A DNA stretch of 64,000 nucleotides, taken from Herbiconiux sp. SALV-R1. Lineage in GTDB: Bacteria; Actinomycetota; Actinomycetes; Actinomycetales; Microbacteriaceae. Below are positions 56,508 through 61,516 of this stretch, in pieces. A program made the translations under genes and the position numbers. Within the stretch, counting starts at the first letter, position 1. Each line of letters starts with the position of its first letter. Location: the NCBI RefSeq assembly GCF_013113715.1, contig NZ_CP053344.1, positions 930,001 to 994,000 on the forward strand. The letters run 5' to 3'. Under the pieces are notes generated by a model. The model made no database searches. It saw only the letters and a list, made by a program, of their open reading frames with translations, and was not told the origin of the DNA.

Positions 56508-58187
56508 ATGAACACCAGCCCCGTCTACGATCCGCCGACCCTGGAGGCGGGCACACTCCGCATCACGCCGGTGGGAGGCCTCGGCGAGATCGGCCGCAAC
56601 ATGACCGTCTTCGAGTACGAGGGCAAGCTCCTCGTCGTCGACTGCGGCGTGCTGTTCCCCGAGGAGCACCAGCCGGGTGTCGACCTCATCCTCCCCGACT
56701 TCAGCATCGTGCGCGATCGCCTCGACGACATCGTCGGCATCGTGCTCACGCACGGCCACGAAGACCACATCGGCGCCGTGCCCTACCTGCTGAAGCTGCG
56801 CGAAGACATCCCGCTCATCGGTTCGGCGCTCACCCTCGCGCTCGTCGAGGCGAAGCTCAAGGAGCACCGCATCACGCCCTACACCTTCGACGTGGCCGAG
56901 GGGCAGATCGAGAACCTCGGGCCGTTCGAGTGCGAGTTCGTGGCGGTGAACCACTCGATTCCGGATGCGCTGGCCGTCGCCATCAAGACACCGGGCGGCG
57001 TGGTGCTGCACACCGGCGACTTCAAGATGGACCAGCTGCCGCTCGACGACCGCCTCACCGACCTCCGGGCCTTCGCCCGTCTCGGCGAGGAGGGCGTCGA
57101 CCTGTTCCTCGTCGACTCGACCAACGCGGATGTCCCGGGCTTCACCCCGCTCGAGCGCGACATCGGCCCCGTGCTCGAGTCGATCATCGAGCGCGCCCCG
57201 CGGCGGGTGATCGTGGCGAGCTTCTCGAGCCACGTGCACCGCGTGCAGCAGGTGCTCGACGCGGCGCACGCCAACGGGCGCCGGGTGGCGCTGCTCGGGC
57301 GCTCGATGGTGCGGAACATGGGAATCGCCGCCGAGCTCGGGTACCTGAAGGTGCCCGAGGGTGTTCTCGTCGACTTCAAGAAGGCAGGTGACATCCCCGA
57401 CGACAAGATCGTCTACATGTCGACCGGGTCGCAGGGCGAGCCGATGGCGGTGCTCTCGCGCATGGTGAACAACGAGCACCAGATCGAGGTGGGAGAGGGC
57501 GACACCGTCATCCTCGCCTCCAGCCTCATCCCGGGTAACGAGAACGCCGTGTACCGCATCATCAACGGGCTCACCAAGCTCGGGGCCAACGTGGTGCACA
57601 AGGCCAACGCGAAGGTTCACGTCTCGGGGCACGCCGCCGCGGGCGAGCTGCTGTACTGCTACAACATCCTGAAGCCGAAGAACGTGCTGCCGGTGCACGG
57701 CGAGTACCGGCACCTGGTGGCGAACGCGAAGCTCGCCATCGACACCGGGGTGCCGAAGGAGAACACGATCATCGCCGAAGACGGCACCGTCATCGACCTG
57801 CGCGACGGGGTGGCGAAGGTGGTCGGGCAGTACGACCTCGGCTACGTGTACGTCGACGGTTCGACCGTAGGCGAGATCACCGACGCCGACCTCAAAGACC
57901 GCCGCATCCTCGGCGAGGAGGGCTTCATCTCGATCATCGTCGTGGTCGAAGCGCTCACCGGCAAGATCGTCGTGGGCCCCGAGATCCACGCCAAGGGCTT
58001 CGCCGAAGACGACTCCGTCTTCGACACCGTCAAGCCCAAGATCAGCGCCGCCCTCGCCGAGGCCGCCCAGAACGGCGTACGCGAGCCCTACGCCCTCCAA
58101 CAGGTCGTGCGCCGCACCGTCGGCCGCTGGGTGAACACCTCCTATCGGCGGCGCCCGATGATCGTGCCCTTGGTGATCGAGGCCTAA
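56508..58187 (+). CDS. rnj: Ribonuclease J
   Basis: RNase J (559 residues) is a combined endo- and 5'-3' exoribonuclease central to RNA decay in actinobacteria. The metallo-beta-lactamase motif THGHEDHIG places His82, His84, Asp86 and His87. The beta-CASP domain has DSTNADVPGF and SGHAAAGEL, followed by the C-terminal dimerisation domain. ATG 56508 is preceded by GAGGAGGG. The 3' side is followed by a 425-bp gap with a large inverted repeat. Confidence 0.95.
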   Translation: MNTSPVYDPPTLEAGTLRITPVGGLGEIGRNMTVFEYEGKLLVVDCGVLFPEEHQPGVDLILPDFSIVRDRLDDIVGIVLTHGHEDHIGAVPYLLKLREDIPLIGSALTLALVEAKLKEHRITPYTFDVAEGQIENLGPFECEFVAVNHSIPDALAVAIKTPGGVVLHTGDFKMDQLPLDDRLTDLRAFARLGEEGVDLFLVDSTNADVPGFTPLERDIGPVLESIIERAPRRVIVASFSSHVHRVQQVLDAAHANGRRVALLGRSMVRNMGIAAELGYLKVPEGVLVDFKKAGDIPDDKIVYMSTGSQGEPMAVLSRMVNNEHQIEVGEGDTVILASSLIPGNENAVYRIINGLTKLGANVVHKANAKVHVSGHAAAGELLYCYNILKPKNVLPVHGEYRHLVANAKLAIDTGVPKENTIIAEDGTVIDLRDGVAKVVGQYDLGYVYVDGSTVGEITDADLKDRRILGEEGFISIIVVVEALTGKIVVGPEIHAKGFAEDDSVFDTVKPKISAALAEAAQNGVREPYALQQVVRRTVGRWVNTSYRRRPMIVPLVIEA

Positions 58188-58227
58188 AGCGTTCGGGGTG
58201 CCGGGAGTCATCGGGCGCCGGCCTGCT

Positions 58228-58353
58228 GTGCTAGCTGCCGGCAGGGCCGTGCTGCGCGCGGCTCTGCCGGGGCGCGCCGGTCCTCGCCCGGCGCGCCGCG
58301 ACATGTGAGCACGCGGTCGCTGACGCGGCCACGCACTCACCCTGGGTCGTCGA
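58228..58353 (+). repeat. Left copy of a three-hairpin structured element
   Basis: Three hairpins in a row are seen on the plus strand. I is a 12-bp stem, CCGGCAGGGCCG (58238-58249) paired with CGGCTCTGCCGG (58259-58270), with one G-T pair and the loop TGCTGCGCG. II is a 10-bp stem, GGCGCGCCGG paired with CCGGCGCGCC (58271-58297). III pairs GTGAG with CTCAC (58305-58340) and, inside an ACGC/ACGC loop, GGTCGC with GCGGCC around TGAC. The start is GTGCTAGCTGCCG. Together with the opposite copy it fills the 425-bp gap between rnj and ftsK, where I see no protein gene. Confidence 0.9.
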
Positions 58354-58440
58354 GTACGGCCCGCGGCTTTCACGTCGCTGCCAGTACCTACTCGCAGATG
58401 GCGGGACAGAGGTGCGGGTTTCAGCGCAACAGGCCTCTGT

Positions 58441-58566
58441 CTGACGACCCAAGGTGAAGGCGTGGCCGCGTCAGCGACCGCGTCTTCACATGTCGCGGCG
58501 CGCCGCGGAAGCGGCGGCGCGCCCCGCCGGAGCCGCGCGCAGCACGGCCCCGGCGGCAGCTAGCAC
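58441..58566 (-). repeat. Right (inverted) copy of the three-hairpin element
   Basis: Read on the minus strand from 58566, this is a second copy of the element at 58228, starting with the same GTGCTAGCTGCCG. Most sites agree over about 126 bp. Differences fall in stems and keep pairing: hairpin I changes CCGGCAG/CTGCCGG to CCGCCGG/CCGGCGG, II changes its closing G-C pair to C-G, and III changes GTGAG/CTCAC to GTGAAG/CTTCAC. The G-T wobble of stem I is conserved on this strand. The 87-bp centre also has a 7-bp pair, ACAGAGG/CCTCTGT (about 58406-58440). Confidence 0.9.
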
Positions 58567-58576
58567 GGCGCGGCAT

Positions 58577-58604
58577 CGAGGCGATGTCAGCGCCTCGATA
58601 TAGC
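58577..58604 (+). promoter_or_regulatory. Hairpin and leaderless-type -10 box before ftsK
   Basis: CGAGGCG (58577-58583) and CGCCTCG (58591-58597) form a 7-bp hairpin. It abuts TATAGC (58599-58604), which ends 8 nt before the ftsK ATG at 58613. No ribosome binding site is visible, so the transcript may be leaderless. Confidence 0.4.
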
Positions 58605-58612
58605 GTGATTTC

Positions 58613-61516
58613 ATGGCCACGAGTAGTAAGTCGACGCCTCGGAGTACGAGGGGGTCTTCGGCGCGGGCGACCGGGGCTGCGCCGCGGAAGCCGGCGCAGC
58701 GCACGGCGGCGCAGAAGACCGTGAAGTACCCGGTGGTGTCGGAGGAGAAGCCGAATCCGCTGGTGACGCTGTGGCTCGGCATGGCCCACGTGGTGGGCGG
58801 TGCGGCGCGGGCGTTCGGGCCGGAGAAGCTGGCGAAGGAGGAGCGGCGCGACGGCCTGCCGTTCCTGTTCTTCCTGCTCGCGGTGGCCGGTGCGGTCACC
58901 GAGTGGTTCCTCGCCTCCAACGCGGTCGCGATCTCGATCAACGCCTACACCTTCGGCGGGCTGTTCGGCCGGGTGGCCTACGCGCTTCCCGTCATCCTGC
59001 TGCTGCTCGCGCTCTGGCTGTTCCGGCATCCGGCGTCGGTGAACGACAACGGCCGCATCGGCATCGGTCTCGCCGTCTTCCTGGTCTCGGTCTCGGGCCT
59101 CTGCCACGTGTACGGCGGCGCCCCAGACCCGGCCGCGGGCATCGAGGGCCTCGCGGTGGCCGGCGGCATCATCGGCTGGATCGCGGGCGCCCCCCTCATG
59201 ACGCTCATCACCCCCATCGGCGCCACGATCGTGCTCGTGTTCTTCTGCGCCCTGTCGCTGTTCATCATCACGAAGACCCCGCCGAACCGCATCGGCCGTC
59301 GCGCCCGCGAGCTCTACGCCTATCTGTTCGGCGCCCCCGCACCGAGCGACGACGACGCGACCGACGCATCCGGCGCCGGCGCGGGCACGGGCACGCCCAC
59401 CGCGACCGGCAAGCGCGGCAGGAAGGGCGCGGCCGACCCGGCCGACGACCCGAACATGCTCGACTTCGACGCCCAGCCCGATGACGGCGGCGCCCTCCCG
59501 TGGTGGCGGCGCAACAAGAGCGAGCGCGAGGTCGACCCCGAGTTCGAGACGCCGCTCATGGCGCCGCGCATCGAAGACCGCACCCCGCCGCCCGAAGACG
59601 GGCCGTACATGAGCCCCGCCGAGTTCGACACGGCGGCCGCCGGTGGCGTCGACGGCGTCGGCCCGGCCGCAGCAGCCCGCGATCTCGACAGCACCGAGGC
59701 CTTCGGCAACGGCCTTCTCCACGACATGGAGGCCGCCGAGCAGGCCATCAAGCGCATCACCGGCGAGGTGCTGCCCGGCCGCAAGCAGACCATCGGTCTG
59801 CTCGACGACGACGGCACCGAGGCCCTCGACGCCTTCGCCACCCCGGTTCCGGATGCTTCCCACACGGGTGCCGTGGAGGGCATGCCCGAGCCGCCTCCCG
59901 CATCCGACCCGGCGAACTACCGCCTGCCCTCGGTCATGAACCTCTCGACGGGCGAGCCGTCGAAGTCGCGCTCGGCCGCGAACGACGACATCGTGCGCGC
60001 CATCACCGACGTGCTGAAGCAGTTCTCGGTCGACGCGCAGGTCACCGGGTTCTCGCGGGGCCCGACCGTCACGAGGTACGAGATCGAGCTCGGCCCCGGC
60101 GTGAAGGTGGAGCGGGTCACCGCCCTGTCGAAGAACCTCGCCTACGCGGTCGCGTCGAACGAGGTACGCATCCTCTCGCCCATCCCGGGTCGCAGCGCGA
60201 TCGGCATCGAGATCCCGAACACCGATCGCGAGACGGTCTCGCTCGGCGACGTGCTGCGGTCGCAGAAGGCGATGAACGACCCGCACCCCATGACCATCGG
60301 CGTCGGCAAAGACGTCGAAGGCAAGTTCGTGCTGGCCAATCTCGCGAAGATGCCGCACCTGCTCGTGGCCGGTTCCACCGGCTCGGGCAAGTCGAGCTTC
60401 ATCAACTCGATGGTGACGAGCGTGCTCATGCGCGCGAAGCCCAGCGAGGTGCGCATGGTGCTGATCGACCCCAAGCGCGTGGAGCTCACCGCCTATCAGG
60501 GCGTGCCGCACCTCATCACCCCCATCATCACCAACCCGAAGAAGGCGGCCGAGGCGCTGTCGTGGGTGGTGAAGGAGATGGACATGAGGTACGACGACCT
60601 CGAGAGCTTCGGCTTCCGTCACATCGACGACTTCAACCGCGCCGTCATCAACGACGAGATCCAGCTCCCGCCCGCCTCGCAGCGCGTGCTGAAGCCCTAC
60701 CCCTACCTCCTCGTGGTGGTCGACGAGCTCGCCGACCTCATGATGGTCGCCCCGCGCGACGTCGAGGACTCGATCGTGCGCATCACCCAGCTGGCGCGCG
60801 CCTCCGGCATCCACCTCGTGCTCGCCACCCAGCGGCCCTCGGTCGACGTGGTGACGGGCCTCATCAAGGCGAACGTGCCGTCGCGGCTCGCCTTCGCGGT
60901 CACGAGCGTCACCGACTCCCGCGTCATCCTCGACCAGCCGGGCGCCGACAAGCTCATCGGCCAGGGCGACGCGCTGTTCCTCCCCATGGGCTCCTCGAAG
61001 GCCATCCGCGTGCAGGGCGCGTGGGTGCCCGAGAGCGAGATCCAGAAGGTCGTCGAGCACGTCACCCGGCAGGCCCGCCCCGAGTACCGCGACGACGTGG
61101 CGGTGACGGCCGAGAAGAAGCAGATCGACTCCGACATCGGCGACGACCTCGAGGTGCTGCTCGCCGCCGCCGAGATCGTCATCACCACGCAGTTCGGCTC
61201 CACCTCGATGCTGCAGCGCAAGCTCAAGGTGGGCTTCGCGAAGGCCGGCCGCCTGATGGACCTCATGGAGTCGCGCGAGATCGTCGGCCCCTCCGAGGGC
61301 TCGAAGGCCCGCGACGTGCTGGTCACCCCCGACCAACTGCCTCAGGTGCTCGCGATGCTGCGCGGCGACGCTCCGGATGCCGGCGGCCAGGTGGGCCCCA
61401 GCCCCTCCGGCGGGCCCTCGGCGCCGTCGTCGTCGTACGCGCACGACGACGACCGCTACGCTGATGACGACGAGTCCGGCAGCGAAGACGCCTGGCAGTT
61501 GACCGGCAGGGAGTGA
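58613..61516 (+). CDS. ftsK: DNA translocase FtsK
   Basis: FtsK (967 residues) pumps DNA through the septum and activates dimer resolution during division. A basic N-terminus and about four membrane helices (75-235) anchor it. An acidic, Ala/Asp-rich linker follows (240-440), then the RecA-like motor with Walker [10 protein letters not shown] at 587-595 and [11 protein letters not shown], and a C-terminal gamma winged helix ([20 protein letters not shown]) that reads DNA polarity. ATG 58613 begins the conserved protein. pgsA follows 4 bp after the stop. Confidence 0.95.

Follow-up and report, generated by a model that had tools for sequence, protein, structure and literature searches.

A genus-wide family of three-hairpin repeats at the 3' ends of genes in Herbiconiux

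Introduction

In high-GC actinobacteria, few terminators carry a U tract. The REP/BIME palindromes of Escherichia coli are associated with a RAYT and a GTAG motif, and a Y1 transposase is expected where BIMEs occur. Clustered hairpins lying no more than some tens of bases from a stop codon have been reported as terminators, many of them without a U tract (in passages of PMC8355165), and REPs lying no more than 15 nt from a stop codon have been reported to stall ribosomes in E. coli (in passages of PMC12306157).

The locus described here lies between rnj and ftsK in a 64,000-nt stretch of the genome of Herbiconiux sp. SALV-R1, referred to below as the window. The original prediction, made from the letters of the window, held that two inverted copies of a three-hairpin element are present, that their differences keep base pairing, and that selection therefore acts on a folded molecule, either an undescribed structured RNA or a palindromic element transposed as a single strand and inserted as an inverted pair like a BIME. 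We put at about even the chance that the two copies are members of a genus-wide family of structured elements of approximately 150 nt that are transcribed as the 3' UTR of the upstream gene and act at transcript ends.

Results

The inverted pair between rnj and ftsK

A repeat search of the window returned inverted arms at 58225-58351 and 58443-58569, each 127 nt long, 87% complementary and separated by 91 nt, and BLAST aligned copy 1 to copy 2 at 88% identity over query positions 1-124, so the inverted pair is real (Table 1). Folded as RNA, both copies form the same three hairpins, at -92.9 and -91.2 kcal/mol (z scores of -3.77 and -4.02), and none of 200 shuffles folded as well as either copy, in keeping with the claim that the differences between the copies largely preserve pairing. 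For both copies, the + strand in the element's own sense folds better than its complement. Two details of the original description needed correction: the loop of hairpin II, which had been counted among the unchanged loops, differs between the copies, and the conserved unit extends approximately 30 nt further in the 3' direction than claimed, into a tail near TGGGTCGTCGAGTACGGCC. The 5' end of copy 2 lies 43 nt ahead of the ftsK ATG. No terminator-like or promoter-like pattern was found in 58180-58620, nor any hairpin with a T run behind it. Between the rnj stop and copy 1, the end of rnj recurs in inverted orientation as a perfect 13-nt match (58149-58161 and 58208-58220).

Table 1. Features of the rnj-ftsK interval and its flanking genes (window coordinates)
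Feature	Position	Strand	Description	Evidence
rnj (ribonuclease J), gene 5' of copy 1	56508..58187	+		ORF; Pfam RNase_J_b_CASP 1.4e-46, RNase_J_C 5.1e-21
Copy 1, model positions 1-156	58225..58380	+	37 nt past rnj stop, sense to rnj	Covariance model R1, 157.2 bits (R1 training alignment contains this copy)
Hairpin I, copy 1	58238..58270	+	15 pairs, triloop, conserved U-G pair	Covariation counts, folding
Hairpin II, copy 1	58271..58297	+	10 pairs, 7-nt loop	Covariation counts, folding
Hairpin III, copy 1	58309..58336	+	Conserved GGTCGC / GCGGCC top, loop TGAC	Covariation counts, folding
Conserved tail, CACCCTGGGTCGTCGAGTACGGCC region, copy 1	58337..58362	+		Alignment, folding
Copy 2	58413..58569	-	Tail-to-tail with copy 1, antisense to rnj and ftsK	Covariance model R1, 151.4 bits
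Hairpin III, copy 2	58458..58485	-		Alignment, folding
Hairpin II, copy 2	58497..58523	-	Other loop type	Alignment, folding
Hairpin I, copy 2	58524..58556	-		Alignment, covariation counts, folding
ftsK, next gene	58613..61516	+		ORF; Pfam FtsK_SpoIIIE 3.3e-66

Across 16 Herbiconiux species, the rnj-ftsK interval holds the element in five (paired in four, single in one) and lacks it in 11, and the element is therefore dispensable at this site. Several element-free species carry different, unrelated strong hairpins in the same interval (L160, L164, L166, L169, L171 and L172), and the interval of G008 and G004 contains a 21-nt perfect stem.

A lineage-restricted family

A BLAST search of the source genome with copy 1 yielded 17 matches, of which 13 are near full length (119-126 nt at 75-100% identity) and four are short fragments, so the pair is not a chance occurrence; four sets are close inverted pairs and the remainder are single. 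The same screen of 15 congeners, with approximately 14 candidates scored per genome, gave at least 14 matches in 11 of them, five in G006, one short match in G013 and none in G001 or G009. A covariance model made from 27 copies gathered by BLAST (alignment A1) detected between 1 and 91 matches in each of 15 of the 16 Herbiconiux genomes, with up to 150 candidates scored per genome, and none in G001. Beyond the genus, BLAST matches among 60 relatives were short and weak. The search of Microbacteriaceae genomes that the original prediction had proposed returned Herbiconiux and one other genus: seven of 249 genomes matched, four of Herbiconiux and three of the genus designated g66, representing two of 85 genera, and a closer look at g66 found 11 weak matches in seven of 15 genomes. 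With stricter filters and the best seven candidates per genome, a survey of 396 genomes of the order matched in the source genome only. No match to the element was found in plasmids, phages or viral contigs.

A scan with a pattern of the conserved core collected at least 120 loci (L037-L156) from Herbiconiux species and MAGs, 'Corynebacterium-like bacterium B27' and 'Microbacteriaceae bacterium 3FA27C10', all taken as Herbiconiux; a few genomes dominate this set, and its core conservation is partly by construction because the loci were found through the core. No Rfam 15 family scored above its gathering threshold, the best being P4 (13.1 of 37 bits), MIR840 (37.2 of 150 bits) and Thr_leader (30.2 of 55 bits), which leaves an undescribed structured RNA as the best reading of the two offered originally, and no description of the element was found in open-licence literature on Herbiconiux, on Microbacteriaceae noncoding RNA or on stop-codon repeats. 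Like dispersed structured intergenic repeats of the BOX and bcr kind, it occurs in many copies, is restricted to a lineage, is folded and lies mostly outside genes, with eight of 152 copies among the matches listed overlapping a predicted gene by more than 25 nt. The family is new and of a known kind, that of dispersed structured repeats; its placement and its exchangeable first hairpin are unusual.

Covariation in three helices

RNAalifold predicted 42 pairs from the 27 copies, 19 of them changed on both sides in at least one copy. For counting, three helices and two weaker stems were named by hand, giving 44 pairs, in which 95.7% of cells pair and 21 pairs change on both sides (9 of 15 in hairpin I, 5 of 10 in hairpin II and 7 of 12 in hairpin III). 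Double-changed cells numbered 103 as against 24.7 in shuffles, none of 500 shuffles reached any of five covariation measures, and sliding the partner by one to three columns left at most 15 such cells. A second set, in which 89 of 137 rows were kept among the matches listed, agrees, its top eight covarying column pairs all being helix pairs. The three predicted helices are thus strongly supported by covariation, the view that selection acts on a folded molecule is upheld, and the further copies with paired changes whose lack had been named as grounds for refutation exist.

The original prediction had also singled out a T-G pair kept in both copies, and this was borne out, as 27 of 27 copies have U-G at two places, column pairs 26-34 and 93-104. 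Among the matches listed, the 89-copy set contains G-U and A-C cells in ratios of 159 to 7 in hairpin I, 3 to 3 in hairpin II and 153 to 46 in hairpin III, or 92 to 52 summed once three wobble pairs are removed, so that strand preference is clear in hairpin I and mixed elsewhere. One pair of hairpin III is C-A in 29 of these 89 copies among the matches listed, which favours the opposite strand at that pair. Two candidate stems were rejected, one that would close the element by pairing its 5' end with the tail (0 of 2 pairs double-changed) and a hairpin within the tail (0 of 5). The tail motif GTCGT can pair with GCGAC ahead of hairpin III, a pairing that is weakly supported, with 1 of 5 pairs double-changed.

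Placement at native stop codons

Placement was counted for the 152 of 161 hits that scored above 45 bits, at 120 loci among the matches listed, with genes called by a codon-usage script of our own for which 29 ORFs of the window served as the training set. Among the matches listed, the upstream gene is on the same strand for 121 copies, on the opposite strand for 25 and missing from the stretch for six, and for same-strand copies the model starts a median of 4 nt after the stop codon. This distance is zero or negative in 56, at most 15 nt in 75 and at most 60 nt in 98 of the 121 same-strand copies among the matches listed. Also among the matches listed, intervals with the element are convergent in 61, tandem in 48 and divergent in four cases (n=113), as compared with 91, 411 and 148 of those without it (n=650), an enrichment in convergent intervals (p = 5.7e-19) and a depletion in divergent ones (p = 1.5e-7). 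Of the two gaps beside a single copy in these matches, the 5' one is the shorter in 34 of 46 convergent intervals, in 24 of 26 tandem-sense placements and in 9 of 13 tandem-antisense placements; single tandem copies listed comprise 28 sense and 13 antisense. In total, 21 of the 152 copies among the matches listed are antisense in tandem intervals and four in divergent ones. Copy 2 of the window lies outside the stop rule because it faces ftsK and is antisense to both genes.

A hairpin this close to the stop could in principle slow or stall the terminating ribosome and tune translation of the upstream gene, as passages of PMC12306157 describe for REPs of E. coli lying up to 15 nt from the stop. 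The 75 of 121 same-strand copies within that distance, among the matches listed, would suit such an action, whereas the remaining 46 among the matches listed, and window copy 1 at 37 nt, lie further off, and we hold this reading to be very unlikely.

As for the stops themselves, among the matches listed all 17 at -10 are TAG, all eight at -5 are TGA and all eight at -1 are TAG, and TAG accounts for 43 of 66 stops near elements versus 204 of 726 elsewhere. Stops falling in the first ten positions of the model raised the possibility that the element supplies the stop codon. This was rejected in favour of native stop codons, since genes without the element have the same C-termini and stops. At L186/L197 the TAG is identical in the empty and filled alleles, and at L187/L198 the element sits between a pair of convergent stops whose spacing in the empty allele is 4 nt. 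In all 11 genomes, of 16, where the end of a thioredoxin/TPR gene was readable, the protein closes with LLY before the stop; these include G005 and G006, which carry no element within the next 75 nt. For a pyrophosphatase gene, readable in six of 15 genomes, the stop is TAG without an element within 75 nt in G005, G010 and G011 and TAG with an element in G003 and G012. Presence at the same gene end is patchy between species. The L173 comparison was left out as its G014 side retains an apparent remnant of hairpin I, and L178 and L190 had no orthologue within the stretches compared.

A different position is shared between genera. An antisense copy adjoins the start of a gene with a UvrB interaction domain (Pfam), which we take to be mfd-like, in Herbiconiux (L049, L146) and in g66 (L215, L216, L231, L235), and blastn aligns this gene at 74-78% over approximately 1 kb between the genera. 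The shared copy argues for age, and perhaps for function, and not for a 3'-UTR role at that site.

Exchangeable hairpins and gene-end duplications

The first hairpin is an exchangeable module. Among the matches listed, 132 of 137 rows were used to examine the hairpin I slot, with the canonical loop in 59, another hairpin in 55 and none detected in 18. Within one genome, L001 and L002 share hairpin I at 100% identity and hairpin II at 74%, and at an orthologous site G000 and G014 carry hairpin II of two different types. In g66, hairpin II and the following linker are tandemly repeated at L232 and L237, and another long-hairpin family (near CTCGATACGCC..GGCTACTCGACCAGC) adjoins the element at L216:1790-1890 and L217:1710-1860.

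At L104 (rnj of H. solani) and at L217, L222, L233 and L236 of g66, hairpin I takes its 5' arm from the 3' end of the gene itself, and an inverted copy of that end serves as the 3' arm, with 13-22 pairs. The same genes recur, in different genomes, at L217/L236 and at L222/L233, which leaves three independent loci. Inverted copies of a gene end with at least 13 pairs adjoin 5 of 122 genes with the element and 4 of 691 without, and two of those four element-free cases are the partner genes in L217 and L236. The copy at L104 in H. solani is an 18-pair duplication centred on the rnj stop codon.

Such cases bear on the idea that templated mutation, one arm being copied from the other, makes and keeps perfect arms and so generates covariation with little selection on the fold. 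Hairpins built from a host gene end and its inverted copy at three loci speak for it, as do their excess beside elements and the 13-nt inverted copy of the rnj end in the window. Arm copying would not, however, be expected to fix the wobble pairs at columns 26-34 and 93-104, nor to leave G-U so much commoner than A-C in hairpin I, and we consider it the least probable of the explanations weighed here.

Arrangement of copies and mobility

Neighbouring copies within 2 kb are tail-to-tail in 27 cases, direct in seven and head-to-head in one, an overlapping weak hit, among the matches listed. Tail-to-tail pairing follows if each copy abuts a stop codon in convergent genes, and in five of 11 convergent close pairs among the matches listed each outer end is no more than 21 nt from a stop. 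Paired copies make up long inverted repeats, but most copies are single, so the inverted pair is not a fixed unit as had been supposed. Seven wider tail-to-tail pairs among the matches listed enclose 565-1521 nt, some with genes, including a HAD-like gene in L081 (Pfam), an HD-like gene in L068 and an MFS-like gene in L038 (the latter two by eye). Pairs acting as gene-carrying transposons were considered and set aside, as stop-abutting copies in convergent neighbours would yield the same arrangement. In H. daphne, the long intervals between tail-to-tail copies at L075:5910-6547, L103:6151-6957 and L132:350-914 look like arrays of a further repeat with no convincing single gene. A second palindromic repeat (near TTGGTCGCGCAAA..GGGAGCACTTTGCGCGACCAA) lies beside several copies in G000 and G014, near their tails (L183, L186, L191 and L173).

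Of 18 close pairs among the matches listed, 7 include a hairpin with a T run; as stated above, none was found in 58180-58620, and a universal U-tract terminator was accordingly discarded.

The suggestion of a single-strand-transposed BIME was not supported. The Y1 transposase domain PF01797 was detected in one of 16 Herbiconiux genomes (G001, L206), which has no copies, in a search whose controls, including E. coli, were detected, and a BIME/RAYT system was rejected on this ground. BIMEs are short single palindromes alternating head-to-head and tail-to-tail; the element has three hairpins and its neighbours are nearly all tail-to-tail. The reverse transcriptase domain PF00078 occurs in only three of 16 genomes, G009, G001 and G007, with 1, 0 and 27 copies, respectively, and a reverse-transcriptase route is therefore no general explanation.

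The element could nevertheless be selfish MITE-like DNA moved in trans, with gene 3' ends merely tolerating insertion and the paired changes reflecting a DNA hairpin used in mobility. Patchy presence between close species, variants shared within a genome and mosaic copies such as L001/L002 would all follow, and BOX, RUP, SPRITE and IS elements of pneumococcus are likewise enriched between convergent genes according to passages of PMC3049150. Tolerance, however, fails to explain the 56 of 121 copies among the matches listed that are at or overlap the stop. No target duplication was found in the two clean filled/empty comparisons, and a flank scan of 27 pairs found matches of 4-10 nt at no constant position. 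The two transposition-related domains searched, PF01797 in one and PF00078 in three of 16 genomes, are mostly in genomes that are not rich in copies, and plasmids, phages and viral contigs gave no match. Taken together, we regard the selfish-DNA account as somewhat unlikely, while the strongest of the alternatives.

Discussion

The reading we prefer remains that of a structured family transcribed as 3' UTRs; we infer both that the element is transcribed together with the upstream gene and that it acts where transcripts end. Under this reading, the RNA would fold once made, placing a hairpin cluster directly behind the stop site of the translating ribosome, and the cluster would end the transcript, block 3' exonucleases, or both. 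In a minority of tail-to-tail pairs, the two tails together would also form a U-tract hairpin terminator, and copies would spread and swap modules within a genome. For the window, this means that copy 1 would terminate the rnj message or shield it, and copy 2 reads the opposite way, towards rnj.

A more specific version, which we think unlikely, is that of a mobile RNA module at native stops, preferably TAG. The sequence of its hairpin I would be free, so that inverted duplication of the host gene's 3' end could supply it, and a stop within or beside the hairpin would couple termination of translation to that of the transcript.

If the 3'-UTR reading is true, this would be a dispersed repeat acting as a selected RNA and not junk DNA, on the basis of dozens of copies per genome, paired changes in three helices and placement at native stops. 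It would also offer a natural experiment on how transcripts end in high-GC actinobacteria, sister species having the same gene end either with the element or lacking it. The inverted duplications of gene ends give a way to study how hairpins at gene ends originate.

Among known systems, the hairpin-cluster intrinsic terminators in passages of PMC8355165 are likewise hairpin clusters near the stop that need no U tract; they are unrelated local sequences, whereas the copies in Herbiconiux are homologous members of a single spreading family that shares a conserved tail. The REP/BIME palindromes of E. coli also lie behind genes, some within 15 nt of the stop codon (in passages of PMC12306157), while the Herbiconiux element is approximately 150 nt long with three hairpins, and the genomes that bear copies lack a Y1 transposase. 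Pneumococcal BOX, RUP and SPRITE elements are, in passages of PMC3049150, short, dispersed, highly folded and over-represented between convergent genes, and BOX is modular, with 36 BOX copies carrying a stop codon at a gene 3' end. Unlike these, the Herbiconiux element is GC-rich, unrelated to them by Rfam and BLAST, placed at native stops and provided with a replaceable hairpin I. Finally, bcr10 and bcr18 of Bacillus cereus, which are transcribed and structured, lie in 5' UTRs, with no mention of stop-abutting placement in passages of PMC3446304, but the bcr1-bcr18 repeats as described there resemble the element in being dispersed and genus-restricted, with approximately half in transcripts and some having a conserved secondary structure.
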